DNA of 34,742 bases from Pigoraptor vietnamica. Lineage: Eukaryota > Opisthokonta > Filasterea. Below, piece after piece: positions 6,524 to 33,923 of the stretch. Below the pieces are notes generated by a model. It ran no database searches, was not told where the DNA came from, and was given only the letters and a program-made list of their open reading frames with translations. The number at the start of each line of letters is the position of its first letter. The stretch's first letter is position 1. The stretch covers positions 1 to 34,742 of the forward strand of contig CALSCQ010000577.1 of NCBI GenBank assembly GCA_943704525.1, written 5' to 3'. A program made the translations under genes and the position numbers.

Positions 6524-7056
6524 TTTCCGGCGCCGGGACGCGCGCGGCGTGCGAGAGCGCCTCTCAGGGAGGTACCGCTATTAAAGAGCGCAAGCAAAGC
6601 AACTTTTTTTTTCACTCGCGCACTTTCGGGTGAGCTGGCGGTTTCGGGTCTGTAACAACTGACGACGTAACATGGCGCATTTGGTGAGCTACAGTGCATG
6701 GTGAGGGTCTGCTATGGCACAAATTTCAACACATACGAAAATGAAAAGCGCGCTTTGCGCCGATTCGCCCGCCATTTTTGAGGGGCGGGCTGCAGCGCGC
6801 AGAGCGTATGCCGGGAAGATGTGCGACCACGATGCGAGAAAGGGAGATTGGGGCCGTGACGGCGATATCACGTGATTCCGGGCTAAGACCCTTCTGTGCC
6901 CGTTTTTCACAGAGTCCTTTTTTTTTTTGGGTTGGACTGAACACTGCTCCAACAGTGACTGACCGCCGGCAAGTGGGACGGCAGACTGCGTAGACATACA
7001 TTTGATAGTTGTCCGAAAGACAGGAGTCTGAATACTGCGACGGCCAGCGGCCCACC
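6524..7056. promoter_or_regulatory. Intergenic region between SIR2-like 3' end and TTC17-like start
   Basis: No coding sequence is supported. It should contain the promoter of the TTC17-like gene (start codon at 6523) and the 3' end of the SIR2-like gene. A perfect TCACGTGA palindrome lies at 6868-6875, and T/A-rich runs occur at 6604-6612 and 6919-6930. Open frames across it have no recognisable composition or domain. Confidence 0.4.
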
Positions 7057-8352
7057 CTATGCACGTCGCTGTCTCACCGCCTCGAGCAGTCGCCGCACAG
7101 TCTCCGTTGCATCGCCCAGATGCACAACGTCGCGGTCGTCACGTAGATACGAAGGCACTTTGATGTCCAGCGCAACGACACGTGCCGGTGATCGCTCGTG
7201 GACGGCGCCGATGAGTCCATGGTGGTCCATGCCGACGCCCACGCACAGCAGCACTTCGAGTGCGTCGGGCACTTGATCTTTGACCGACCCGTCCCTGTTG
7301 AGATTCGTCGGGACGTAACCGCACGCGTGCATGAGAAGGTCCGTGTTCGTCGTCACGAGCGGGGCGCCTAGAAGCGCGGCAAGATCCCCTAGCGCCGCGT
7401 GGCCGACGGGGCAGAGACTTTCGTTCCACGAGAGCATCTGCGACATCGTCTCTAGAAAATCGGACACGAGGGAGTCGTCGCGATCGAGGATGCGTTGCAC
7501 GAAGCGGTCAACGAGCACGTCCTGTTCGTACATGTATTCCCTATCCTTCGCCTCGCCCGACTTGAAGCCCACGGCGGCCGAGAGCCCCGCGCCATAATAC
7601 ACGAGCACGCGCGACGCGCTCGCCAAAAGGCCCGCAACGAAATCGAGCGCGACGTGTTGCGGCGGGATTGATGGCGGCGTGGTGAGCGGTGCTCTCAAGT
7701 GCCCGCGTTTCAGCCGCTTTTCAATTTCGCTCTTCAGCCGCTCCGCCGTCCTGTCTGCCACACCGCGCTTTTCGAACAAAACGTCCACATCCTCACCGCC
7801 GCGCAGCCTTCGCCAGTCGCGATCCAATACCCAACCGGGCGCATTCATGCACTTGAACAGGGGATTCTTGATGCCAAAGTGGGCCGCAACGTTGTCGACG
7901 CGCACGAAGCGCCTCCGTTGGGCGTCCGTGAGAGCGAGTGGGAGGTCCTTCATGCGATAGACGACCACGACGTACACCAGGTAGTCGTCTATCGAATCAC
8001 GATCAGTCCGCGGGTGTTGAAGATCTTCGAGTCGACGCACGCGGAGCAAGAGATTCGCCGCAAACTCGACGTCCTCGCGATCGTCAAGAGTGGTCGGCAG
8101 GGCGCCCACGGAGTCCACATTGGTCACGGGGGGTGGGAGGTCGCAGTTTGCGTTGCTTCCTCGCAGTTCGTAGTGCTTGGCGTGCGTTTCTGCCGCCGCC
8201 AAGGCTTCGGAAGGTGCATGCTGCGCGCAAGGGCAGTTGGACGTCAAATAAAAAAAAGTGAAACGAAGGACGTCAGGGCACGAGAAGTATTTTTATGTAA
8301 CTGAGAATTCCCAAGTGCTCACCTTAGCGGGCACTAGCGTGCGAAAGGCCAT
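7057..8352 (-). CDS. SIR2-like NAD-binding protein without zinc module, 2 exons, 397 aa
   Basis: Exon 1 (8352-8323) encodes MAFRTLVPAK and ends at a GTGAGC donor. Exon 2 (8220-7057) follows a strong ttgcgcgcag acceptor in phase 0. I chose this start because the uninterrupted frame of exon 2 begins without an ATG. The C-terminal half (about 214-392) has the sirtuin Rossmann signatures: VLVYYGAGLSAAVGF (GAG-x-S), P-x-GHAALGDL, LVTTNTD (T-x-NxD), VLLCVGVGMDHHG, then RVVALD and a closing HLGDATETVRRLLEAV. Between TTNTD and the VGVGM strand only about 35 residues remain, so the four-cysteine zinc module and the usual HG catalytic histidine are absent. The TTN-x-D form resembles SIR2-type NADase/SIR2_2 proteins more than protein deacylases. 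Residues 1-210 are unrecognised. It could be an NAD hydrolase, an NAD sensor or a dead sirtuin fold. Confidence 0.72.
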
Positions 8353-9095
8353 TGCTGTGTGTATTGTCAGCGTCGTAGCGTGTGAATCTGCTCTCTGCTT
8401 GTCGTCTGTCCCGGGCCCTCAGTCTGCCCAATACCCACAAGCGTCGACGCAGTGAGAAACGCCGGCGTGCAAAACGTTTCCACCCGATTATGTATGGTGT
8501 AAGGTGAGGATTACCTTGCGGATACGATTGTGTATGATGCAAGGTGAGGGCTGCCCGTTCGGGACATCCGGGGTAAAGTCCGGGTGGCGACATATTGGAG
8601 AAGACCCCCTCCGATCGCCAAATTTTGTCCGATCGCCCAAATATCGGAGTCCCGGGTGACCGGACTATTGTCAAATGGAATGCCTTCCTGTGCGCGGTGA
8701 GCTGGCACCAAGTGTGAGAATAATAATAACAGCCCGCCTTCGTTTTCTCTCTTTCCCAACGAACCGCGACTGCTTCTCTCTCCGTGTATCTGCTGTCCTC
8801 TGTCGGGGCTTTTCGTCTCTCGTTCGAACGGCGTGTGGCGCACCATGGTTTCGTAACGCGCCGAGTCGTCGGCCTTTTTTTGCCGTGTCCACTGTCGTCC
8901 GCTCCGTCAAGTCGCACAAAGCACGTCATTATAGTTTGAGCGCTGCGCCTCTCTACACACTCGCCGCGTGTGATTTTTTTTGAAGGGGTGACGCAGCGTT
9001 AACTGGTGGCAGCGTCTGCACGCGACGTGCATTGGCTCAAGATCGAGCACTTTCGTTGTGGAATCGTGAAACCATAGCGCTCGAGGGTCACACAA
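8353..9095. promoter_or_regulatory. Divergent intergenic region: SIR2-like (-) and receptor kinase (+)
   Basis: 743 bases between two divergent start codons, so it probably carries both promoters. No ORF here shows a domain. Visible structure: a 25-base imperfect direct repeat (8486-8510 and 8526-8550) and a short CGATCGCC-CAAAT motif used twice (about 8612-8645). No TATA box is evident. Confidence 0.45.
8486..8550. repeat. Imperfect 25-base direct repeat, 40 bases apart
   Basis: The two copies start gattatgtatggtgtaaggt and gattgtgtatgatgcaaggt and match at 21 of 25 positions. They sit in the divergent intergenic region upstream of the SIR2-like gene. They may be paired regulatory sites or a decayed tandem duplication. 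Confidence 0.75.
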
Positions 9096-10535
9096 ATGTC
9101 CGCGCGGCGGAAAACGGCGGCCTCATACGCCGCCTACGCGCTCGTGGCCACAATTGCCCTCTTCTCCGGTGTCGCAGGTGGGAGCACATGCTGCTCGTGC
9201 TGTGTACGCAAATCCCCTCTGTCTCGTGCACGTCGCCGATTGTAACTGATTGAGTCTCTCGGCAGATTCGGCGTGCGTGTCCCTCTCGTGGGACTCGCCC
9301 TTGCCGTCGGAGGGCATGAATAACGCCACCCTTCCGACGATCTCGGTCACCTGCGATGCCGGCTCGACCTCCGTCCTCACACTCCGCACGAACAACAGCG
9401 AGGCTATCGTGGGCGACGCGGTGGCAACGGCCACTTTGGACGGCGGCTCTCCCTCTCGCGCCTCGTTTGCCGGAGTGCGCCTCAGGCAGGGCACCAACAC
9501 GCTGTACGTGACTGTGTCGGACTCGGCCGCCGTGCTCGTCGCGCCCTCCAACACAGTGGTCTATCCCGGTGAGCAGATTTGTTTCAGCTCGCCATCTCAC
9601 GCACTCTCTCACGATAGCCGTGGTTCTTGCGTCTCACTGACTCTGGTGCTTTGCGCCCTGTCTCGCCCCTTTTTCTTTGCCGGTTCTCCAGCGACGTTTA
9701 CGGTCGGCGGCCTCCATTTCAAGAACGGCGCCTTCCGGACCCACGCGGGCGAGTACCTCACCATGCTCACTGCGGAGATTGTGTCATCGGACAAGGTGCT
9801 CCTCCCGAACACCACGCTTCGGTACCCGCGGCGCTCGACGGCGTGCACGGCGCCCGCCACCGCCGTCAAGGCAGCCATCGATTACGTGCAGAACTACGCC
9901 GCGGACGTGTTCCTCGGGCCAGTGTGCTCGGCGGAGTCGAAGCAAGTTCACGTCAGTGAGTGCAATGCGCGCATGCATTTCAACAAAGTGGCAAGGGTGT
10001 GCGTGTGTGCTGTGTGTTGTGTCACTCGATACTTGAGTGGTTTTGCGTTTAATTTGTAACTGTTTTTTGTACGTTGCATGAGGTATCGCTGAGAAATTGT
10101 GGCCCATCACGCACAGTCGCAAGCGTGTACGGCGTCCCCATGCTCAGCTACTTGTCGGGCATCCTGGAACTCTCCGACAAGGTGGGTTATTGTGTTGTTG
10201 CACACGCGCCCCTTTGCTATGTAGCCCTTGTCGCCATTGCATTGTTTGGGCTACGTGTGAAACGGCACACGCAATCCATTCTGAGTGTGTGTGTGCCGGT
10301 CCCTCAATCGTACGAAGTCGCATCTGCGGAATTGTGTTGCGTGCGGAAGGGGCGCCTTTCTGAGCCGCTCGCGTTGTATTGCTGCAGAAAGTGTACCCGT
10401 ACTTCATCCGGGGCATGGACCCGCTCTCCGAAGACCTCGGCTACGCATCGATCGTCAGCCACTTTGGGTGGAAGACCATTGTGAGTGCACACGCCGCCTT
10501 CGTTTTGTCCCAGCCTGCTGTTAGTTGCCGCAACA

Positions 10536-10589
<54 letters not shown>

Positions 10590-13500
10590 ATGAGAGAGAG
10601 CATGCGTTGCAGCTATACGTACGATTGCTCACGCGCTTAATGCGCACGCGCAGAGCATCGTGGAGTATGGCATCTTCCCCTTCTCGGACGTGTTTTACGC
10701 GCGCGTTGCGTCGTTGGGCATCGAAATCAAGAGCAAGTTTGTCGTGCGCTCGGGCGCGACCGACTTTCGCGACGGTCTCTCCATCCTCAGGGGCTCGGGG
10801 TCGCGCGTGTTCGTGTCGAACGTCTACAACGCCGGCGGAAACGGCGACGCGGCGCGTTTTTTGAAGGCGGCGGTCGCTGGGGGGATTGTTGGGCCGGGGT
10901 ACACATGGTGGGCGCCTCCTCTTTACATGTGCTGTGCGCAAGTGTGCGCCCTCTTTTTTTAAAAAAAAATCGATGGATGTTAACCCGTGCACACCACTTT
11001 CAATCATGACGTGTTTTCGCTGCGCGCGTGCCCCTGCCCATCGCTTTCTGTTTCTCTTCGCAGGATCATGGGGTCTGACGCGAGCCTGACGCTCGACCCC
11101 CGCTGGCTGAACGTGAGCGAGCTCGTCGCCTTCAACGGGTCGTTTGGCGTCGCCAATTTGCTTCCGAAGGGCGATTTTCCCCTCCGCCGACGGCTCGCGG
11201 ACCTGTGGAACTCGCGCAACCTGTCCGCCATCGGAGAGCCCGTGCTCGTGGCGCCCCTCCCGGCGTTTGTGTACGAGAACGTCACGGGGCAGGCGGACAC
11301 GATCACGACGGAGGCGGGGATGGCCGTCGATGCAGTGGGTGTTGCTGGCGCGCAGTGGGGACTGGGTCGTGAAAGTGCGCGCGTGTGACATTATTTGCAT
11401 CTTGGGTGGGACTTGAAGTGGTTGGAAGCGTGAGTGTGTGTGCGGGGAGGGACTTGAGTCTCCATTGCTGCCATGTTCTAACCCTCACCTGTCTCGGCGC
11501 AGTTCCTGACGCTGGTGCGCGGCTTCCACCAGCTCGCGTACGTTCAGAAGGTGTTCGTAACGCCCGCGAAGCTTCTCGCGGCGCTGTTTGCGACCAACTT
11601 TGAGGGCATCACGGGGACGGTCAGCTTTGACGCCAACGGCGACCGCCTGGCCATGACGGAGGTCCGCAACTTTCGCTTCTCCGCAGTCAGCCAGGTGCGT
11701 GCCAGTGCCTGCGTTGCTCTCCTGAGGCGGCCATGTCGTCTTGCGATATGTTGTGTGCGGCCATGCGACACTCGAGCACAAATCGCGCGCCCCCGTTGTA
11801 ACGAGCCCGTCACGCGCGCGCGCAGGCCATGACGACTGTGCGCGTTGGGTTTGTCCGCTATGACGCATCCCGCAATGCCACGGTGGACCTTTCCGAGAGC
11901 GGCTACGTCAACCGCACCCGAACGGGCTCCATTCTGTGGTCGACCGGCCTGACGACTGTCCCTGCGGCATGTGAGTGCTGTGTGCGCTTGGGCAAGAGAG
12001 GGCATGCGCGCGTTTTTTGCGATCGAAAGTCATCTTGCCGGTTGTCGGCGCGTGGTGGATTTGCTTTGAGACTGTTATTGACCTTGCTCGCCGCTTGGGG
12101 GCAGTTGCTTGTCCGCGCGGCTGCGTCAACGGCTACTGCAAGGCGCACGACACGTGCGTGTGCAACGCGGGATGGTCGAGCTCCGGAAATGGCCCCGACT
12201 GCGTCGTCGGTGGGTGTTCGTTTTATTTGAAGTCGAGAAACAATTTGTGTCCAGCTGCGGCGCCGTCTTCTGTTAGCCGCTATTCTGCACCATAGCGTGC
12301 TCTAATTGGACCGTCCGCTGCTTTCGCTGTCGTAACGTGGGGCTTGAAATCTTCTCTCGAGTGGCGCCGTCTTTTGTTAGCCACCCATGCTGCATCACGA
12401 ACGTTGTGCTGTGGCACGCTTTTTTTAATTGGACCGTCCTGCCAGTCGCTGTCGTAACGAGGGGCTTAAAAACGTCTCTGCAGCCGTCTGCTCGTCGTGT
12501 GCCAACGGCGTCTGCACTGCGCCCGAGGTGTGCGAGTGCCGCGTGGGGTGGACGGGCGCGTCGTGCCTCATCGCGACCGACTCGTCAAGCTCCGACAAAG
12601 GTGCGTGTGTGCCGTGCGGTGCCAGTGGCTCGGTTGTCGGAAGTCCTGGAGAGTGCTGCACTGCGTAGCATGCCTTTATGTCGCGGGAAGGCGCGGGCGG
12701 CAAAATATCCTGCGACGCGTGTCCCCATGTATCGACCCACGTGCGCGCACAGACACATTCAACTTGCCCTCCTCTTCGCTCGGGAGAGAAGTAGGGTCGA
12801 CGGATAATCTGAATGGAGGCTGATATATGTGCGCATCTCTCTCATCAGGCCGCATAGTGAGCATCGTCGTCGGCACGGTCGGGTCGGTGCTCGTCGCCAC
12901 GTGCGTCGCCTTTGCCGTCTTCTACCGCGTGAAGCGCGCGGCCCTCCTCCGCGACGCGCAGCAGTGGCAGATTGACGTTGAAGAGCTCGTGTTCGTCAAG
13001 CCCATCGGCGTCGGGTCCTTCGGCAAAGTCTACAAGGGCAGGTGCGTGGGCGTGCGCGATGTGCACTGTGCCGTGACTCTCTCGTATGTTCAGCGGCTGC
13101 GGTGGTGGAAGGGCGGGCGCGCGCGCGCGCGGTGTCACGTGAATAAGCTTTGCCTGAGGCAAGTCTGTCCGCTGTTGTCGCCGCAGGTGGCGCGGCACAA
13201 CCGTCGCCATCAAGACGATCCTCACCGAGTCGTACGACATGGACAAGCGCCTCGAAAAGGCCGGCGTCGAAGTCACGCACTCGACGCGGTCCGGTGGATC
13301 AAGGTGGGTGCGCGTCAGCACAGACGCCACCGGCACATGCCGACCCAGGAGCGCGGGGCCTCAGTGGTGTCTATACACATTGTTGTCGAGACGACTGGCC
13401 TCTTACGGCGTCCCCTTGTTGCGTGCTCGCAGTGCGACTTCCCCGCCCGCAATTCGCTCGCTCTACCAGTCGATATACGTGGTGAGGGACGCGTCTGCGC

Positions 13501-15244
13501 CCTCGTCGAAGCAGCAGACGAACGACGGCCCGAGGCCTTCGGACACGCGCACCGTGTCGGCGCACGCGTCCAAGAAGAGCAGGATATCAGAGGTCTTGTC
13601 TGGCGCGCTCAACATACTGCGGGGGACGAACCGGAGCCGCAGGGCCGGGACGACCGCCGCTGACGAGAGTACTGTGCGCGAATTTTGCGACGAGATTTCG
13701 TGTATGATCAATCTCAGACATCCTAACATCGTGTTATTCATGGTGCGTGTGTGTCGTGCGTGTATGCTGCTCTCCCTCAACGCGTTGCCGCCGTATGCTG
13801 CGGTCAAAGGCACACTTCTTTCTCTTCACCCGCTGCTGTGTTCGACCCCATGCGGCCTGATATATGGCAGGCATACCTCTTTACTTACAAAATGCGGGCG
13901 CATCCACGCAGGGTGCTTGTATGAAGGCGCCGGACTGCGTGCTCGTGACCGAGTTTATGGGCAACGGCTCGCTGATGGACCTCTACGACGACGACGGGAT
14001 TGCCTTCACGTGGAAGCTCCGCGTGGACTTTGCGCGCGACTGTGCCGCGGGCATGACGTACCTCCACATGCATTCGCCTCCGATATGTGAGTTGTTTGCG
14101 CGTGAGTGCGCGTGTTTGGTTGTGTGTGGTCGATCCTAGTAGTATATCTTAGATACGACTAGGAGACGGTCCATGTATGGTGGGTGTTACTCTCACTATG
14201 GGACACTACGAGATCACGTGACCGGCACGTGACGCTGTGTGTTGCGATGTTTGGGTTGGGGTTAGGGTTACATAGGGTTGTGTGTCAGGGTGGGGGTTTT
14301 GCTGTGCGAGGTTTGCGTCGTCATTCATGGAACCGGGCTTAATTCCATTTAATCGCAGTGCACCTCGACCTCAAGTCGCCCAACTGCCTCATTTCTGATA
14401 ACCTGACGCTCAAGGTGTGTTTGCGTTAAATGCACAGCTGCTAATGCTCACCAAGTAGTCGCCCGCTGTACGCTTGCCCACTGTCTTGCGCAAACGGCTG
14501 CTTTCGGAATCTATAACGGGGCATCGTCGCAGGTGTCGGACTTTGGCCTCTCCACGCTCAAGCGCGCTGAGGAGAAAAACAAAGGGGAGCAGGAAGTGCG
14601 CGGGACTCTGCTGTGGCTCGCGCCGGAAATTGCCCGTCGGGAGCGCGGTGCATTCACAGAATACGCCGACGTGTACAGCTTTGGTGAGTTCGACCGTTGC
14701 GGATGTATCCCCTCCGTGCGCGCATGTGTGTGTGTGCAGAGTGTGCGTGCGCGCATGAACCTCTGCTGATGTGCCGTTGCTTACGTGCTGCCACAGGCAT
14801 CATTCTCTGGGAGCTTCTCGCGCGACAGGTGAGCATGCCGCGGGTTGTGCGCTTCTCTACTGTATATGTGGCCGTGCGTTGTGACATGTTCGTGTGTGCG
14901 TGCGGTGGTGTTACTGTACATATGTGCGCCGATGGTGTGAGACGAGCGCTGATCCCCCTCGCCTTCATACACAGCTGCCCTACGCCAAGGACAACCTCAT
15001 CAACCACAAGGGCCTCAGCAGCCTCATCGAGGCCGGCCTCCGCCCCTCGCCCATTCCCGCAGACACGCCAGAGGAGTGGCGGGCGCTCATGATCGGCTGC
15101 TGGTCGGCCGCACCGAACGACCGCCCCTCCTTCCCTAACGTGCTGGCGCGCCTGGACAGCATGGCCTTTGCAAAATGGCCCGAGCCGCGCATCCACCGCT
15201 ATGACCGTGAGATAACAATTCGCACGGGGCTCTCCAGCGACTGA
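9096..15244 (+). CDS. Receptor kinase: ANF/periplasmic-binding ectodomain, 2 EGF, TM, TKL kinase; 19 exons, about 1064 aa
   Basis: Exons: 9096-9177, 9266-9568, 9692-9955, 10117-10181, 10388-10480, 10654-10907, 11064-11334, 11503-11694, 11826-11970, 12105-12209, 12484-12600, 12849-13041, 13187-13303, 13433-13742, 13912-14086, 14359-14414, 14533-14683, 14797-14828, 14975-15244; phases agree throughout. Residues 1-27 are a signal peptide and 28-128 a beta-rich, possibly Ig-like region. From 129 to about 540 comes a type-1 periplasmic-binding/ANF receptor fold (DVFLGPVCS, IASVYGVPMLSY, VSHFGWKTI, GYTWIMGSD, VSFDANGDR). EGF modules occupy about 557-630 and a TM helix 633-656. The kinase has GVGSFG 684-689, VAIK (Lys704), about 100 extra residues before EFCDEI, HLDLKSPN (Asp899), DFG 917-919 and LAPE. 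The HRD arginine is Leu898, so it is a non-RD kinase. It is probably a ligand-gated Ser/Thr receptor kinase of the plasma membrane; the ligand is unknown. Confidence 0.85.
10539..10586. repeat. CA microsatellite in receptor-kinase intron 5
   Basis: 24 uninterrupted CA units between exon 5 (ending 10480) and exon 6 (starting 10654). It is intronic and not coding. Confidence 0.95.
12257..12480. repeat. Diverged tandem duplication of about 105-120 bases in receptor-kinase intron 10
   Basis: Copy 1 (12257-12360) and copy 2 (12361-12480) share, in order, GGCGCCGTCTT-TGTTAGCC, a GCTGCA/TCTGCA block, TAATTGGACCGTCC, CGCTGTCGTAACG and GGGGCTT. Copy 2 ends at the branch/acceptor region of exon 11, so the duplicated unit includes the 3' end of the intron. 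It lies between the two EGF-coding exons. Confidence 0.75.
14135..14280. other. Odd intron 15 content: near-palindrome, paired CACGTG, telomere-like GGGTTA run
   Basis: Within intron 15 (14087-14358), 14135-14163 forms an imperfect hairpin (arms CCTAGTAGTATATC and GATACGACTAGG, loop TTA). At 14214-14221 is TCACGTGA, with a second CACGTG about 12 bases on. At about 14251-14280 is a G-rich stretch containing GGGTTGGGGTTAGGGTTA and a further AGGGTT. The intron is otherwise unremarkable and no gene is seen in it. Confidence 0.6.
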
Positions 15245-15466
15245 GTGTGCGGGAACACCGTATGCGAAATACACAAGACTGGCACTACCGCCAACCCGCT
15301 GTCTGGACTAAGGGAACATGTTGCCACATCCAGCCCACTCACAAACTCACCTTACACACACCTTACGCCTCGTGTCGTCGTTGCTTTAAAATAGGTCGCA
15401 CACTCACACCCACACCCTCACACTCACACACGCCCCGTGTCGTCGTTTGCTTGAACATAGGCCGCG
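15245..15466. other. Short intergenic gap between receptor kinase and exonuclease
   Basis: 222 bases between two plus-strand genes, holding the kinase 3' end and the exonuclease promoter. It contains CACTCACAC-rich runs (about 15345-15433) and two near copies of CGTGTCGTCGTTGCTT about 60 bases apart. Nothing else is visible. Confidence 0.4.
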
Positions 15467-16969
15467 ATGTCACGGGGGTGCGCGCTCCTGTATGGCACCG
15501 CTTACCTGTGTGTGCGAAGATCCGCGACCGCCGCGCACCGAGCATCCACGCGGCTCTATTCGTCTTCGTCCTCACGACCACCGCGACCGCCGTTAGAATT
15601 CCCTCCGACACGAACGCACTCACAAAGAACTGACGCGCGCACAAATGCGGCGGACGACACAGCGGGGTTATTTCGCTTCGGAGAACGCGCACACGAGCGC
15701 AAAGCGCGTCCTCGCAACGGCGTGAGCGGTGACAAGGAACACGTGCCCCTCAGTAAGAGCGCGGAGGCATGGCGGGCAATGGGAAAGTACAGTGTTCCGG
15801 AGGATCTTGTGCGGAAGGCCGGTGCGTCAACGGTGCGCGTGGCACTCACCATGGACCCCGGCGAGTTTGATGCGCTTGCCGAGGACCTGTTGGCCGATGG
15901 GGGCGTCGTGGGAATAGACATGGAGTGGCGGCCTTTCCAAGAAGACGCGCCCGTTGCGCTCGTGCAGGTGTCCACGATGGACCGCTGCATACTCTTTCGC
16001 ACTTGCACGCTGAGGTGAGTTCTTGGGTGCGTGCGACATGTGCACGTGCTTGTGCGTGCGTGTGTGTAAAAAACTCACTTTGTGGCGTGCATGCCTCTAT
16101 GTATTGTGCTGGCTGCGTGCGTGTGTTTATATCATGTGTGCCGCGCCCGAGTGCGTGTACGGCGTGGATGTGCGCATGCTGTGCTTGTATGCTTGTGTGT
16201 GTCTCTATGTGCATCTGCCATTTGGAATTTGCTGTTCTCTGGGTCACATATCCCTCTGACCCATACTCGAAAATGGGCGTCGCAGGCGGTCGCAGCAACC
16301 ATCGCTGCCCTCCGCCTTGCTTTCCCTGCTGGCCAACCCCGCCATCCTCAAAGTGGGCGTCGGTTTGGTCGAAGATCTCCAGCGACTCGCGGCCGATTTC
16401 CCCCCGCTGACGTGGCGCGGTGTCGTGGACATCGGCGATGCGGCGGGCGTTGTGCGGCACAAGGCGCTCATGGCGGCGAAGGCGGCGGCGGAAGCGGCGG
16501 CTAGGGCAGCGGCAGAGTCGGCGGAGGTGGGAAGCGCGGCGGCGGAGGTGGAGGGAAGGACGGCGGAAGCGACGGAGGTAGAGGGAGGGGCAGCGGCAGA
16601 GTCGGCTGAGGTTGAGAGAGGGGCAGCGGCGGACTCGGCTGCGGGTATGCAAGTCCCAGGTGGAACTCCGGAGGGACAGACCCCATCGGTCGACGTGCGG
16701 AGCGTGGGAGAGGCGAGCAGCCGCGCTGAGGACGGGAGGGGTGCTGGTGTGGTTGAGAACGACAGGGCGCAACAGCAGTCCGCGGCCACGGTGGACGCGG
16801 GGTGGCACGCGGACAATACCGCGGAATCGACTCTGCCGTCGGCGGAGGCTGAGGGAAAATCGGCGAGGGAGCAGGGAAACGAGGAGGTGCGCGCGGACGC
16901 CGCGGGAGCCGGTGGCGCCGTGCCCGGAGAGCTGGTGAAGAATTGCCCGCACACACTTCTTTCATATGT

Positions 16970-17040
<71 letters not shown>

Positions 17041-17557
17041 CCACACACCACGCGCGCGGGCTCACCCACCCACCCACCACGTGCTTACAACGTGGGCCAA
17101 TTTTTGTGAGCAGCACACGGACGCAACGGGAGCCACCCCGGATGGCGCCGTGGTGGTGAAAAAGAAGCGGAAGAAGCAGCCGAGGCCGCCCAAGGCGCAG
17201 CGGATGGGGCTCAAGGGGATCGTGAACGAGTACCTAGGGTTCGACATCGACAAGCCGCGGTTCGTGGTGATGAGCGATTGGGACGCGCGCGCCCTCACCA
17301 CGACACAGATAGAATACGCCGCGACCGACGCGTGGGTCAGCGTCGCTGCCTATCTGAAGATGGTCGAGCGCGGCCTCCCTTTCGTCGTGCGCGAGTGGAT
17401 GTCCCCCACTCCGCATCAGAAGAAAATGAGGGCGGTTGGGCGTGCGGTGGGACCGCCCGCAGCGCCGCACGTGAGGCGGACGGAAGCGGTGGCGGCGTTT
17501 GGTGATAGGCCGGCGCAGCGTCCGAGTGGAGAGTCACCCACTAAGAGGCCTCAATGA
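15467..17557 (+). CDS. DEDDy-type 3'-5' exonuclease with presequence and long low-complexity insert, 3 exons, 546 aa
   Basis: Exons: 15467-16014, 16286-16934, 17114-17557. Residues 1-45 are Arg/Ser/Ala-rich and free of acidic residues up to about 43, including TRLYSSSSS, which looks like a mitochondrial presequence. The fold is that of the WRN/EXD2 3'-5' exonuclease family: motif I VGIDMEWRP (Asp151, Glu153), then VALVQVS; motif II KVGVGLVEDLQRL (Asp212); a helix with GLKGIVNEYLG; motif III YAATDAW (Tyr467, Asp471). All four metal ligands and the tyrosine are present, so activity is plausible. Between motif II and the GLKG helix lie about 185 extra residues, first Ala/Glu repeats, then Ser/Gly-rich, then a KKKRKK cluster. 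The second intron is largely a CA tract. It could be a mitochondrial or nuclear DNA/RNA exonuclease; I cannot decide between EXD2-like and WRN-exo-like. Confidence 0.82.
16971..17038. repeat. CA microsatellite in exonuclease intron 2
   Basis: 34 CA units between exon 2 (ending 16934) and the acceptor at 17113. Read through, it would give a poly-(HT) stretch. I place it in an intron because a GTGAAG donor and a GAGCAG acceptor restore the exonuclease frame on both sides. Confidence 0.9.
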
Positions 17558-17806: not shown

Positions 17807-17913
17807 GAAGCGACCAGCGCGCACGACAGGCCCCCTCGTCAATTGAGGATGAGGTGAAGCGACCAGCACGCACGACAGGTTCACTCGTCAGCCGTCCTTC
17901 TTGAGGATGAGGT
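17807..17913. repeat. Tandem duplication spanning the stop codon of the RA-WH2 gene
   Basis: Copy A (17807-17855, 49 bases) and copy B (17856-17913, 58 bases) are adjacent direct repeats: both begin gaagcgaccagc, continue gcacgacagg and end ttgaggatgaggt. Copy B contains the last codons and stop (17888-17890) of the minus-strand gene. Copy A lacks nine bases there and lies in the 3' flank. So the very end of the ORF plus its 3'UTR was copied downstream. Confidence 0.85.
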
Positions 17914-20900
17914 TTCGCTTCCACTCGGGCAGCGACGCGAGGTACTCCTGGCGCTCCTTCTCCTTCTGCTGGCGCTCGAGCTCGGGGCGCGCGGCCTCGT
18001 TCTTCTCCGCCTCCTTCTTCTTCAGGATGTTGCGCTTCCATTCGGGCACGCCGGCGTACTTCTTGTCCTCCTCTTCCTTCGCCTTGTCGACGCCCGCCGC
18101 AGCCGCAGCCGCAGCCTTCTCGGCCTCTTTCTTCTGCAAAATCTGCTTCTTCCACGCCGGCAGATTCTCGTCGATGGGCGCCGCCGCTGCATGCGCACGC
18201 AAGCCGGTGTTAGATGGGCCGCATCGCTTGAGAGGCACGCACTTTCAAGAGTAGAAGGGGTAGAGACATCACAATACTCACGTTCCGCTGCGGGAGGGGG
18301 TGGCGCGGGTGCCGCTGCAGGTGCGGCGGGCGCCGCGGGTCCACCCGGTGGCTTCGCGCCGCCCACGGGACCCCATTTCTTTGCCGGCGCAGGTCCACCG
18401 GCCGGCGCAGGGGGACCTGGGGGCGGCGGAGGCCCACCCGCGGCGGGCGCGGGCGGTGCCGGCGGTCCAGGTGGTGCTGCGGGGGCCGCGGGGGCTGCCG
18501 GCGCAGGCGGAGGCGGGGCAGGTGCCGAGCCACCACCACCGCCACTGCCGCCGCCTGGAGGGCCAGCCGACGTCTTGCGCAGCTTGATGCCTCCGGCGAT
18601 CGCAGCGTTAATGTCGAAGCCGCCGCCAGAGGGCGCCGGGGCTGGCTTAGGGGCTGGGGGTGCTGCGGCAGGCCCGCCGTCGCCGCCGGACTTCTTGAGC
18701 TTGACATTGGCGAGGCCGGCAAGCATGCCACCACCGCCACCTGCGAGTGGGCACAAGGTTGTGGTCAGCGTCTCGCCCATTTTAAATTATAGAGAACACT
18801 GCTAGGTGTGTTGACGACGTGCATCACGAAGCATATCGGGCCCAGCAAACAACGAGCGACGCCAAACGCACCCGACGGAGGCGGAGGCGGAGGCGGTGGT
18901 CCGCCACCCATCGGCGGGGGCGGCGGAGGTCCGCCACCCCCCATCATCGGTGGTGGAGGTGGTGGTCCGCCACCACCCATAGGCGGCGGAGGAGGAGGCG
19001 GAGGTCCGCCACCCCCCATCATCGGCGGTGGTGGGGGAGGACCGCCGCCGGCAGGGGCGGCGCCCGCGCTCTTCAACTTGACGCCGCCCGCAATCGCCGC
19101 GGCGAGACCGCCCATGCCGCCACCTCCCGACGGCGGGGGCGGGGGCGCAGCGGCCGCTGGCGATGGCTCCGGCGGCGGACCGGCCGACTTCTTGAGCTTG
19201 GCATTCTGCAGACCCGCCAACAGTCCGCCACCGCCTGCGATAATGAGCAACCAATGCTTGAGATACGAGGCGATGGTGCGCACAGGACACTGGGAAAGTT
19301 GCAATCGAACGCCCGCGTACACTGACCTCCGCCCGAAGGCGCGGCTGGCGGCGGGGGTGGAGGCGGCGGGGGGCCGCCACCACCCATCATCGGCGGCGGT
19401 GGCGGAGGCCCACCGCCCATAGCGGGTGGAGGTGGTGGTGGCCCACCGCCCATCATCGGTGGCGGCGGAGGCGGCCCACCGCCCATCGCTGGCGGCGGCT
19501 TCGGCGCGCCGCCCATAGGAGGGGGAGGAGGAGGTCCGCCGCCCATCGCCGGCGGTGGTGGCGGAGGAGGTCCGCCGCCCATCGCCGGCGGTGGTGGCGG
19601 AGGAGGTCCACCGCCCATTGCGGGCGGCGGAGGGGGGGGCCCACCCCCCATCATCGGTGGCGGCGGTGGCGGTCCCCCGCCCATGCTTGCTGGCGGCGGC
19701 GGAGGAGGTCCACCGCCCATACCCGACGACGCAGGCGCGCCCGCCGACTTGAGCTTGATCCCACCCGCAATGGCCGCGGCAATGCCGCCCATTCCGCCGC
19801 CGCCGCCGCCACCACCCCCTCCACCTGACGGGGCAGACGGGGCCGCAGCAACAATGGGAGACGGCTCGGGCGGCGGCGCCGATTTCTTGAGCTTTGCGTT
19901 TTGCAGACCGGCCAACAGACCTCCACCTGCGCGCGGAATAAGCAGACACATGAGAGGCGTCCTATGAACAAGACAGAGGGCGAAAAATGTACACTGTGAC
20001 AATAGCAAACCACAAAATCGCATCGCACTCACCGCCGCTCGCGGGCGGTGCGGCGGGCGGTGGCGGCGGTGGCGGCGGGGGTCCTCCTCCACCTCCCCCC
20101 ATTGGAGGGGGAGGCGGCGGGCCGCCGGCCGCTGCCATGGGCGGTGGCGGCGGTGGGCCACCGAACGACGGCGCAGGCGGCGGCGGCGGACCTGCGGCGG
20201 CCATGGGAGCGGGCGGCGGTGGTGGCGGCATGAATGGCTGCGCGGCGGGCGGCGGCGGCGGCGGGGCGACCGTGGCCTTAGCCGGCGCAGCAACGGGCGC
20301 AGGGGGTGGGCCAGGGGCCTTGGGCGGCGCCGGCGCTGCGACTGGCGCGGGCGGGGGTGGGGCGGGCGCGGCCATCGGAGCAGGGGGCGGCCCAGGCGCC
20401 TTTGGGGGGGCGGGCGCGGCGACCGGCGCTGGAGGGGGACCCGGGGCCTTCGGCGCCGCCGGCACCGCCAACGGCGCGGGGGGCGGGGCGGGCGCAGCTG
20501 CCGGTGGGGCAGGGGGAGGGTGCGCGGAACCGACGTTGGGCGCCGCAGACTGGCGACGCTGTGGCGCGGCGCCCGTTGAGAGGGAGAGGTGCGAGACGTC
20601 TGGGAGCGGGTCTGTTATGGACGGCTTTCGCATGAGGTTCGCAAACGTGTAGCCGGCCGTGCGATACTCGGGCGTGAGTAGGTCCATCGCGGCGCCCTTC
20701 CACTCCTTGGCCGGCGCGGTCGAAATTGCTGGCGAAACGCAGGCGGCGTCAGCGATAGACGCGTGAAAAGACGATACCAAAGGTCCGCCGGGTGCGAAAC
20801 GAGGAAAATGGAGAGGGGAAGTGCGTGAGACAGTGACGCAGGCGCGCGCAGTCCCACTCACTTGCGGCGTACTTGGACTTGAGAAACATCGGGTTGCCCC

Positions 20901-21706
20901 AAAAGTCCTCGCGCATCTGCACGCCCTCCTGTGTCACGGCATTGCTGGGCTGCGTCGACTTCTGTTGCTGGCCGGCGATGCTCCGCGCGGCGGCCTCGTC
21001 GTCTGCGTGGAGGCGTTGGCCAAAGGGGAATGAGATCGACGAGAGCGGAAACAACGGGTAGTAGAAGTCGCGCGCAGACACTCACAATTTCGCTTCTCCG
21101 CAGCACTCTTGAGGTAGATTTTCATGACGCGCTGGTGCGTGTCGCGCGTGACTTGCTGAATGTTCTCCGTGGGCGCCAGGTAGCGCGGGGCTGTGCATGG
21201 GAGGCGCACCATTCAGTGTGAGTGGGTTGGCAACATGAACCGCAGTGCATTATCGCTCCGCCACACACACACATGCCCGCACGCACGTGCGACATGCAAG
21301 CAGACAGGGCGACTCACGCGTGTGTCGGTGGACTGCGTACAGCACGTAATTAGCGGGATCCTGGTCGCCGCCCAGTTTTGGTATCACATTCGCAATGACC
21401 TCGCTTGCAGTCGTCTGCGGCGTAAAGCGCACGCTTCGAAAAGACTCGTCGTTCATGAACAGTCGCAAGACGTCCGTCGACGTGTGCTCGAGATCTGTGA
21501 AACACCGGCGGGGAAATCAACACAACGACGCCAGACAAACACACGAATCCAACGACAGCACGGGCGTGCTGTGGCAGACGCGCACCTGAGAACGAGTGGC
21601 ATCGTCGCGAGATTTGTTCAAACGCAGTCGCGTCAGACTTCTTCTTCTTTGGCGCTGCATGCGCAGAGTCGTCTATCGACGACGTCAACGCGCGATCGCG
21701 AGACAT
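17888..21706 (-). CDS. RA-domain, poly-proline, six-WH2, PxWK-repeat actin regulator, 9 exons, about 986 aa
   Basis: Exons (minus): 21706-21586, 21494-21318, 21190-21086, 21002-20862, 20728-20033, 19926-19327, 19234-18872, 18740-18282, 18186-17888. Every internal junction is phase 1. Residues 41-115 look like a Ras-association domain ([34 protein letters not shown]). Residues about 240-413 are Ala/Pro-rich ending in P6-P9 runs. Exons 6, 7 and 8 each carry two WH2-like actin-binding motifs, [15 protein letters not shown] (exon 8: [15 protein letters not shown]) and (I/L)AAAIAGG(I/V)KLKS (exon 8: [13 protein letters not shown]), separated by GGGPPPPPP runs suited to profilin or SH3 domains. The last exon holds three PxWK motifs ([36 protein letters not shown]) like those at the start of phostensin and taperin. 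Inferred role: Ras/Rap-type GTPase-controlled actin monomer delivery or nucleation. No PH, GBD or CA motif is seen. Confidence 0.82.
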
Positions 21707-26410: not shown

Positions 26411-29400
26411 TTACTTCTTCTTCCCCTTGCCCCGAATCGCCTGCCGCCGGTGCTTCTCGCGTATCCGCCGGCTCTGCGCGTCCTTCCGCCGCCGCATCTT
26501 CAATATCTGCTCGCGCGACTTGAGCTCCGACCGCGGCCCCTTCTTTGCCTTGCCAGGCGACTGTGCATTCGCGTGCGCGCCGCCCTTCTTGGGCCCCGTC
26601 CCGTCCCCCTTGGCGGAGCGACCGCCCGGCGACCCCTTGCCCTTCGGTGCCTTGTGGCCCTTGCGTCCCTTCCCTTCGCCCTCCGCACCGCCGCCGTCGT
26701 CGTTCTCGAATGACACCACGCCTGCCGCGGGCGCCACGCCGCTCGGGAGGCCGGCGACCCTGTTCTTCTCCTTCCACTCCTTGTACTTGTTCGTCTTGTA
26801 CGTCGCCGGAATGTACGCGCCGCTCTCCGTGCGGATCTTCTTCTTCGCGGGCCCCTGGTCGTAGTCCGATTCGCGTATGTACTTCTTTTTTTTCCGATCC
26901 CACTTGAGCTGGTTGCGGCCGCGCTTGATCGTCTCGCCGTCGTCGCCAGCCATGTCTAGCACAGCGGTGTCCGCGGCCGTCCGGAACGACTCAAAGCCAC
27001 CCCCCGAGCCGCGCTCGCGCACTGACAGCGCCTTCTCGGCATTGTGGTCGGCGGGCTTGTAGCGGATAAAGTGCTCCTCGTCGCGAATGCCGCGCGTGCC
27101 GGGCGCGTCGTCGTCGTCGCCGGCGGCGGAGGGTGCTGGCGCCGTGCGTGCGCGCTTTGCCTTTGAGTTGGCCGCCTCAAACCTGTTCGATAGTGCGTCA
27201 GCAACAGGAACACTTATCGCAATGGAAACACCAAAGTTGCTCAAGACACGCAGAGTCGAAAAACAGAGCAAGAACACCCACGCATTGTCAATCTCGTCCT
27301 CGGTTGCCGCGACTGCGCGCTTTCTCTTCTTCCCACTGCCTTCCGCAGCACCGTCCATGTCCATCGCCACCGCGCCGTCTTCGTCGCTCCCAGACGCATA
27401 CGCCTCGGCTGCCGCCCGTCGCTCCGCCTCTTCCCGCGCCCGCAAGTCCTCCTGTCGCCGCGCAATGCTCCGCGCATCACTCGCGCGCTTTCCACGCATG
27501 ACCACCGCAGCCGCATCCTTGTTCGACCTGTCAATCTCGAATATCGTCTGCGAGGGACGATAGTTTCGCACGCCGCTGAGAACGTCGAGGTGCCGCTGGT
27601 CGGCGCCCGCGCGTCCCGCAAACACCGGGTGCGCCACCATCCGTCCCTCGGCAAGAATTTCCTTGGCGCGCTTGACGCTCTCTGCCGACGGCAGCGGGCG
27701 CGACTTGAGATACATCTTGTGGGCATTCTCGACCACGCGAGAGAGGGCGACAAGGTCCGACGACGTCTCCACCGTCTGGCGCACAAACTCGAGGTCGTCC
27801 TCCATGACGCCCGTCGGAAACAGTCCCATCACGCAGTCGTCCGTCTGGTCGCCGCCGGTGCCCGCGAGCACGAGCGGCTTGGCGAGGAAGAGGTGCAAAT
27901 CGAGCGCAAAGGGGAGCTCGTCCGGCGTGAGGAGGCTGTACGCCGTGCCGCTGCGACCGGCGCGCGCGGCGCGTCCCACGCGGTGCACAAACAGCTTGGG
28001 CTTTGGCGGGAAGTCATAGTTGACAACGTTGTCCAGCAGCGGAATGTCAATGCCGCGCGCCGCGACGTCCGTCACGACGAGCACCTTGGTGCGCCCCGTG
28101 CGGAACTTGGCGAGGTTAATCTTGCGCGCCGTCTGGTCCAGGTTGCCGTACACGTACGAAGCGTCGATTCCTGCGTGCGAGAGGAGGTCGCACAGGAATT
28201 CGACGTGGTGGCGCGTCGACGCAAACACGATCGTGGACCCGCCCCCAGCATCGATCCCGCTCTTCGATCGCGGGTCCGCCTTTCCGTCCGCAGTGCCCTC
28301 GCCGCCCTCGCCGTCCTTTGACGCGTCCGCGCTGTCGTCCTTCTTCTTGTCGCCCTTCTTTCCGCGCTTCTTTCCCCGTTTTGCGGCCTCCTTCTCCTCC
28401 TCCGCCTTCATCCGCCGCTCCTCCGGTGTCATGGGCTTAACACCAATCACGCGAGTCACGAGGTGCACGAGGGCGGCCGGCTTCTCGTCCTTCCGCACGC
28501 TGAGGTACGCCAGCTTCAGGTTCTCGCTGATCTTCGTGTCGACGTCGAGGCGGACGAGCGCGGGATCGTGCAGGCCCACGCGCGCAAAATCGACAAGGAG
28601 GCGCGGCAGCGTAGCGCTGAACAGGCACGTCTGTCGCTCCTCGGGCAGCCGCGCGAGAATCTCCCGCAGTTGCTCCTCAAGCCCCAACTCAAACAGGCGA
28701 TCGGCCTCGTCAAACACGACGTACGACACGTTCGGGAACTTCAGGTCCATCTCCACGGCCACGTGCAGAAAGCGGCCCGGCGTCGCGACCACAATGTCCG
28801 GACCCTCGTGCATCGCGGCAAACTGCGCGTCCATGCCGTCGCCACCGACGATCAGGGCGCAGCGGAGGTCGGTGAATTTGGCAAGCTCCTTGGCGAACTT
28901 GAGCGTCTGCATGGCGAGCTCGCGCGTGGGCGACATGACGAGGGCACGCACGCCCGCGCCCGGTTGCCTCGCCTTGAGCCTGCGGGTAGCAGTACATATT
29001 AGAAAGTCACAAGAAGGGGGAGGTGGGTGAGTGAATACCAGGGTGTGTAGCAATACTCGCGCAAGCAACGCCCGCGCGTGTGCGACTGCATCTGAGTCCG
29101 AGTGGCATCCATTTGCACCCACTTTTCCAGCATGGGCAGAAGGAACGCGGCCGTCTTCCCAGAGCCCGTGCGGGCCATTGCGACAATGTCCTTGCCGTCC
29201 ATAAGCAGCGGAATCGCCTGCGACAGACAGACACAGAGCACTCAGCCCCAGCACTCGGCTCCTGTACCAGCCACAGAAGAGCGGCCAGATGCCACGCTAG
29301 CACACCAACCGCCGCCATGCTACCGGCTGCATAATAACAGAGGTTATAGTCGCGATCAAACCCACGAACGTTGGCACACGCGCACGTGCACGCACCTTTC

Positions 29401-30650: not shown

Positions 30651-33923
<3,273 letters not shown>

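Follow-up and report, generated by a model that had tools for sequence, protein, structure and literature searches.

In animals, one protein serves as the GTPase-recruited adaptor (RIAM or lamellipodin) and another (Ena/VASP) as the actin elongation factor. A gene of the filasterean Pigoraptor vietnamica raises the question of whether the two can be joined in a single chain. It lies on contig CALSCQ010000577.1, a stretch of 34.7 kb that was analysed over its full 34,742 nucleotides (the window), in a genome of 32.5 Mb in 1,395 contigs. The gene runs on the minus strand from position 21706 to 17888, and its nine exons splice to a protein of 986 residues with the sole stop at the end. An earlier note on this DNA, made from the letters alone, gave the correct coordinates and strand, and its exons do join in frame to a single terminal stop. 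Read from its N terminus, the protein has a Ras-association (RA) domain, poly-proline runs, six short motifs of actin-monomer type and a tail with three PxWK motifs. This order suggests an elongation factor for actin filaments, recruited by Ras or Rap, with three modules that would load profilin-actin and a tail that would hold F-actin, an interpretation held here with moderate confidence. The proposal in the earlier note of a GTPase-recruited multi-actin binder holds up as far as sequence can carry it, in the RA match, the architecture and the motifs.

The Ras-association domain

The N-terminal Ras-association domain that had been proposed was recovered by profile search. Pfam RA (PF00788) matches residues 47-127 of the full protein with 32.8 bits (E-value 1.1e-7; 2-89 of 93 model positions), against a curated cut-off of 21 bits, and scores 36.1 bits in the N-terminal piece alone. 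The match crosses the join between exons 2 and 3. Exon 2 (21318..21494) encodes the first part of the domain (residues 47-99; 21477-21318) and exon 3 (21086..21190) the last part, to residue 127 at about 21108 by the splice model and Pfam together; a genome-wide search with the RA profile recovers exon 2 at 30.9 bits. The RA_2 model reaches 26.1 bits in the full protein (cut-off 27) and 29.5 bits, above the cut-off, in the N-terminal piece; matches to the RA_3, FERM_f0 and Byr2 Ras-binding models are weak and under their cut-offs. A sequence search of the PDB with the RA part returned nothing significant, only two sorting nexin 27 chains with a best E-value of 0.15.

The domain is preceded by exon 1 (21586..21706; residues 1-40), which holds the start codon and a basic N terminus and is placed by the splice model, with the donor GTGCGC. 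It is followed by a linker in exon 4 (20862..21002) that is without a Pfam match. Between the RA domain and the prolines, residues 182-234 (20728-20571, minus strand) form a segment that is not proline-rich and has neither a Pfam match nor a second copy in the genome; it may serve as a separate binding motif.

Actin-monomer-type motifs and poly-proline runs

Exons 6, 7 and 8 each carry one motif of type A and one of type B, the former starting at residues 417, 618 and 740 and the latter at residues 462, 657 and 778. In exon 6 (19327..19926) the A motif lies at 19918-19883 and the B motif at 19783-19745, followed by ten poly-proline runs. Exon 7 (18872..19234) has A at 19223-19188, B at 19106-19068 and six such runs, and exon 8 (18282..18740) has A at 18726-18691, B at 18612-18574 and a region rich in proline, alanine and glycine with a single run. 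By sequence pattern, all six combine hydrophobic residues with L(K/R)(K/S). Shuffling each exon 20,000 times produced at least one motif in no shuffle of exon 6 or exon 7 and in one of exon 8, a result that is somewhat overstated in that the search pattern was written post hoc from motifs already seen; an earlier, stricter pattern (hydrophobic residues at i and i+3) recovered only two of the six. Across 31 loci, a narrow form of the motif pattern matched only in loci overlapping this gene.

Since the pattern is post hoc, comparison with the GAB motif of VASP provides the more independent support. Against the human VASP GAB (sequence taken from an excerpt of PMC10340426), each of the six outscores all but 0-5 of 2,000 shuffles, which does not amount to six independent tests, as the motifs are copies of two and exons 6 and 7 have the same A motif. 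Type A aligns with the human GAB without gaps, and type B has the AAIAG of VASP plus one added residue. The genome also contains a probable VASP gene (contig C438, about 6680-8600) with WH1 pieces and, identified by eye, a GAB SLQAQLAAARLRK and a FAB VMDEMAAKLARRR. Scores against this GAB were reached by 2-23 of 2,000 shuffles for the A motifs and by 7 for B of exon 8; B of exons 6 and 7 match it poorly (570 and 312 of 2,000). When human VASP FAB was the reference, A of exons 6 and 7 were reached by 0 and 3 of 2,000 shuffles, and the match was not clear for A of exon 8 (51) or for the B motifs (164-1,240); against the FAB of the genome itself none of the six was distinct (238-1,114 of 2,000). 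In PDB searches, the exon 7 pair returned 11 sequences, with the VASP GAB chain 2pbd_V (E-value 0.63) ranked below unrelated interleukin-11 chains, and the exon 8 pair returned one insect enzyme (E-value 1.3).

Part of the resemblance is to WH2 motifs. A probable WASP gene (contig C1305, 1-6000) has WH1 pieces, two WH2 motifs and eight runs of at least five prolines, and with the genome's WASP WH2s as reference, 1-13 of 2,000 shuffles reached the scores of A of exons 6 and 7. The B motifs of the same two exons were matched by 0 of 2,000 shuffles each against another of the genome's WH2s (contig C1094), and type B shows canonical WH2 spacing. Together with the presence of six motifs in a single chain, this would suit a multi-WH2 sequesterer or nucleator of the Cobl/Spire type, in which the motifs line up monomers and the poly-proline serves as a spacer. 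However, the glycine-rich sequence directly before the motifs would leave a short, GAB-like helix, and the motif pairs are separated by 143 and 70 residues of linker rich in proline and glycine. The WH2 arrays of nucleators are tight, unlike the long linkers found here, and a nucleator or sequesterer is considered unlikely.

The spacing of prolines and motifs favours loading of profilin-actin. The proline runs described in the earlier note are confirmed, with 23 runs of at least five prolines counted between residues 337 and 842. The first of these are in exon 5 (20033..20728), where the non-proline segment gives way to a proline-rich region of six runs, the last being nine prolines long. The final run before the A motifs of exons 6, 7 and 8 comprises 9, 9 and 8 prolines and ends 10, 10 and 6 residues upstream, respectively. 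According to the excerpted text of PMC5753033, the proline-rich region of Ena/VASP proteins passes profilin-actin on to the barbed end with the involvement of GAB motifs; the GAB of VASP is shorter than the WASP WH2 by one helical turn, and its preferred substrate is profilin-actin. By analogy with VASP, each exon junction could form one profilin-actin loading module.

The motifs also appear to be under constraint. The A motif (15 codons) of exon 6 differs from that of exon 7 at seven nucleotides, all of them synonymous, and the B motif (18 codons) at ten synonymous nucleotides and at three nucleotides in codons that change the amino acid. Compared with exon 8, the A motifs of exons 6 and 7 differ by nine and eight synonymous nucleotides and by six and five in amino-acid-changing codons, and comparison by eye of the B motifs of exons 6 and 8 gave seven synonymous and three amino-acid-changing codons of 13. 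The linkers between A and B diverge more than the motifs in an alignment of the three exons. We take this pattern, in which amino acids seem to be kept while codons and linkers drift, as a sign of constraint on the motifs.

The PxWK tail

Exon 9 (17888..18186) encodes a basic tail (isoelectric point 9.24) that ends in LILKKDG before the stop. Its three PxWK motifs (18160-18128, 18046-18014 and 17929-17897) begin at residues 897, 935 and 974, each followed by basic residues. Only 1 of 5,000 shuffles of the exon contained even one PxWK, for a pattern that was written post hoc. The motifs had been described as phostensin/taperin-like, and all three are present; the family label is less secure, as Phostensin_N stays under its cut-off of 23 (15.9 bits for the whole protein and 21.2 for exon 9 by itself) and the villin headpiece is equally similar. 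The headpiece model (VHP) is likewise under its cut-off of 27, with 10.2 bits in the full protein and 19.9 in exon 9 alone. Genome-wide, Phostensin_N matched nothing, this tail included, and matched nothing in control genomes either, hence that search is uninformative; the headpiece model matched in three places, the PxWK tail not among them. Two true villin headpieces of this genome end in MPVWKRTDIKKKAGLF and FPAWRQIEFRKKVGLF, close to the tail sequence, and the villin headpiece binds F-actin through its PxWK-like end stretch. The resemblance of the tail to the villin headpiece, in its C-terminal half, is as strong as that to phostensin/taperin. A PDB search with the tail returned four unrelated chains. 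Taperin has two regions similar to phostensin, and its residues 1-260, which hold one of them, bundle F-actin (PMC12139522, in excerpt).

A proposed mechanism and the evidence against it

In the mechanism proposed here, the RA domain would bind a GTP-loaded GTPase of the Ras family at the membrane, as expected from its family. The poly-proline runs would collect profilin-actin, and the run of eight or nine prolines before each A motif would hand it to the adjoining GAB/WH2-type motif, with three such modules in a row. From these motifs profilin-actin would go to the barbed end. Meanwhile the tail, with its three basic PxWK motifs, would grip the filament along its side, in the role of the VASP FAB or the filament-binding region of lamellipodin. 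The latter binds filaments directly, a filament holding comparable to that proposed here, and does so for VASP (PMC4543927, in excerpt). The polymerase activity itself is inferred, as are all of the binding steps.

Several observations weigh against this mechanism. RA domains often do not bind Ras. The VASP tetramerization domain (PF08776) had no match in the protein, a negative that needs caution in that the model has no match anywhere in the genome, the genome's own VASP included; and the processivity of Ena/VASP increases with oligomerization, as stated in the same excerpt of PMC5753033. Within intron 5, upstream of exon 6, there is an in-frame ATG, so that a separate, shorter transcript is possible. 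Moreover, Pfam WH2 (PF02205) reports none of the six motifs, in the full protein or in the three motif-pair pieces, at a limit of E 10 (the HMMER filters discard most matches above about E 0.1); across the genome the model does detect canonical WH2s, with at least 11 matches on 9 contigs, 8 of them marked over the cut-off.

The silence of Pfam WH2 bears on what the motifs are. Genome-wide, the same model gave no match on contig C438, which carries the VASP GAB of this genome, and its missing a motif of GAB type is therefore to be expected. A plain WH2 family assignment was rejected, given that Pfam WH2 reports no match in the protein. The six WH2-like motifs in three tandem pairs that were described earlier are therefore kept in number and in their arrangement of two per exon, and revised in type. 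A short GAB type as in VASP is preferred over plain WH2, as a preference rather than proof, on two grounds: a glycine run precedes what would be a short helix, and the motifs adjoin poly-proline.

The same silence would be expected if the motifs were weak or idle on actin and the protein were a Ras-controlled scaffold, with poly-proline recruiting profilin or proteins with SH3 or WW domains and the tail acting as a bundler. The basic PxWK tail is in keeping with this, given the bundling of F-actin by taperin residues 1-260 (PMC12139522). Set against it are the conservation of the amino acids of the motifs across three exons while their codons and linkers drift, and the lack of a match in the protein to a simple SH3-type pattern and to one further sequence pattern. 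A scaffold of this kind is regarded as quite improbable.

Probable exon duplication and the case for a single gene

All eight introns are GT-AG, all are in phase 1, and their lengths are 83-133 nucleotides. Internal exons are therefore symmetric and can be copied without a break in frame. Exons 6, 7 and 8 share similar starts, and over the stretch of the motif pair exon 7 is 82% and exon 8 is 55% identical to exon 6, which fits an origin of the three as tandem exon duplicates. Exons 5, 6 and 7 also resemble one another at the 3' end: each has eight or nine prolines, two of the three have an AAP stretch, and then follows SGG|GG. The join between exons 5 and 6 is thus of the same kind as those between 6 and 7 and between 7 and 8, which would tie the RA half of the protein to the exons with actin motifs.

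The in-frame ATG in intron 5 would be accounted for if there were two adjacent genes, one for a protein with RA and poly-proline (exons 1-5) and one for an actin-binding protein (exons 6-9). This division is very improbable. The exon 5-6 join is GT-AG and in phase 1 as are all other joins, and the end of exon 5 resembles those of exons 6 and 7. The GC content of intron 5 is 0.49, and its codon scores, -0.47 to -0.72 bits over the three frames, are lower than that of any exon in its own frame. Codon-usage scores of the exons themselves are positive in exons 2, 3, 4 and 9 and slightly negative in exons 1, 5, 6, 7 and 8. The frame of the model is the best of three in eight of the nine exons, and in exon 8 another frame is equal to it (-0.19 against -0.20). 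For the proline-rich exons, codon usage is thus neither proof nor disproof.

Comparison with known actin regulators

The protein shares features with several known families. As in Ena/VASP, poly-proline stands shortly before a short motif that resembles GAB in sequence, and a putative F-actin-binding element lies downstream. However, an RA domain takes the place of EVH1, with no match to PF00568 (WH1), there are three putative loading modules and six motifs per chain rather than one, PxWK repeats are found instead of FAB, and a tetramerization match is absent. MRL adaptors (RIAM, lamellipodin, MIG-10) have an RA domain in their N-terminal part, and the present protein is likewise proline-rich with RA in that position. 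It differs from them in having no PH match and, by pattern search, no MRL-type ligand motifs, and in carrying apparent actin-monomer motifs of its own rather than recruiting VASP. Cobl combines a ubiquitin-like fold at one end with several WH2 motifs, and a domain of ubiquitin-like fold at one end and multiple WH2-like motifs are common to both proteins. Here, though, the domain belongs to the RA family without a Pfam match to the Cobl domain, the motifs are GAB-like and paired, and a PxWK tail is added.

A putative GTPase link and poly-proline followed by WH2-like motifs are also reminiscent of WASP and WAWH. The protein differs from these in lacking a WH1 or CRIB match and in ending with the basic tail in place of an acidic VCA end. 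WAWH and WAML, described as additional amoebal families of WASP type, carry VCA regions (PMC3298513, in excerpt). With phostensin/taperin and the villin headpiece the protein has in common P-x-W-K followed by basic residues, and differs in scoring under both cut-offs and in having the three motifs on their own, with no other part of a headpiece. Searches of the spliced protein for PH, WH1, CRIB, FH2 and the VASP tetramer, under the same E-value limit and HMMER filters, found no match.

As each of Ena/VASP, MRL, WASP, Cobl and phostensin lacks agreement with the protein in at least one defining feature that was tested, it is not a member of any of them. Since the motifs are assigned to the GAB type and the tail has been relabelled, the nearest functional comparison would be a fusion of Ena/VASP with a recruiter of MRL type, and no longer Cobl. 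The earlier note had considered the protein comparable to Cobl or to RIAM/lamellipodin but distinct from both; the distinction and the MRL-type recruiter stand, and Ena/VASP now appears nearer than Cobl. The protein is a new combination of known parts, a GTPase-recruited actin assembly factor of the proline/WH2 type. We know of no other combination of RA, GAB/WH2-type motifs and PxWK, and the open-licence literature, as covered by titles and the starts of abstracts, yielded no protein with RA plus WH2 or GAB; the same arrangement may already be annotated in another eukaryote.

VASP normally has poly-proline runs. In the VASP region on contig C438, in the three forward frames and short of a full gene model, there is no run of four or more prolines, and the protein with RA and actin motifs may thus supply the profilin-loading function. 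If this is right, poly-proline loading beside a GAB-type motif would be found in that protein rather than in the genome's own VASP. This leads to a more specific proposal, which is tentative and may well prove wrong in part: a one-chain, Ras/Rap-switched actin polymerase with recruitment of MRL type and loading of Ena/VASP type, made multivalent by exon duplication instead of tetramerization, held on the filament by PxWK motifs and replacing the profilin loading of a proline-poor VASP. A natural one-chain fusion that repeats the loading module in cis would be a direct test of whether VASP needs tetramerization as such or only several loading sites near one another. It would also show such machines growing through exon duplication.

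The rest of the genome and neighbouring genes

No second copy of the N-terminal 195 residues was found in the genome, where the six matches were four to the gene itself and two weak ones (E-values 0.51 and 0.78). The tail likewise had no second copy, with one weak extra match (E-value 0.079) that has an internal stop. Pfam RA has at least 11 matches on 10 contigs across the genome, and the contigs with RA matches and those with WH2 matches do not overlap, both match lists being lower bounds. Searches with the N-terminal part gave 3 pattern stretches in viral contigs and 295 in prokaryote genomes, none confirmed in either, as is expected for a eukaryotic gene.

Other genes are found on both sides in the window. 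A probable multi-exon receptor kinase occupies 9250-15250 on the plus strand, with an ANF_receptor-like piece that at 20.8 bits does not reach the cut-off (25.4) and a piece resembling a tyrosine kinase that scores above its cut-off. On the same strand, 15464-17557 encodes a 3'-5' exonuclease, recognised by a match to DNA_pol_A_exo1 (36 bits at 16856-17554). The open reading frame at 15464-16015 looks by eye like the first half of this exonuclease and is without a Pfam match; a stretch rich in glutamate and alanine and a CA repeat lie between it and the exonuclease match. Beyond the gene are two housekeeping neighbours, a DBP10-type RNA helicase (26411-29296, minus strand) and a Cdc48/p97-type AAA ATPase (32014-33498, plus strand).

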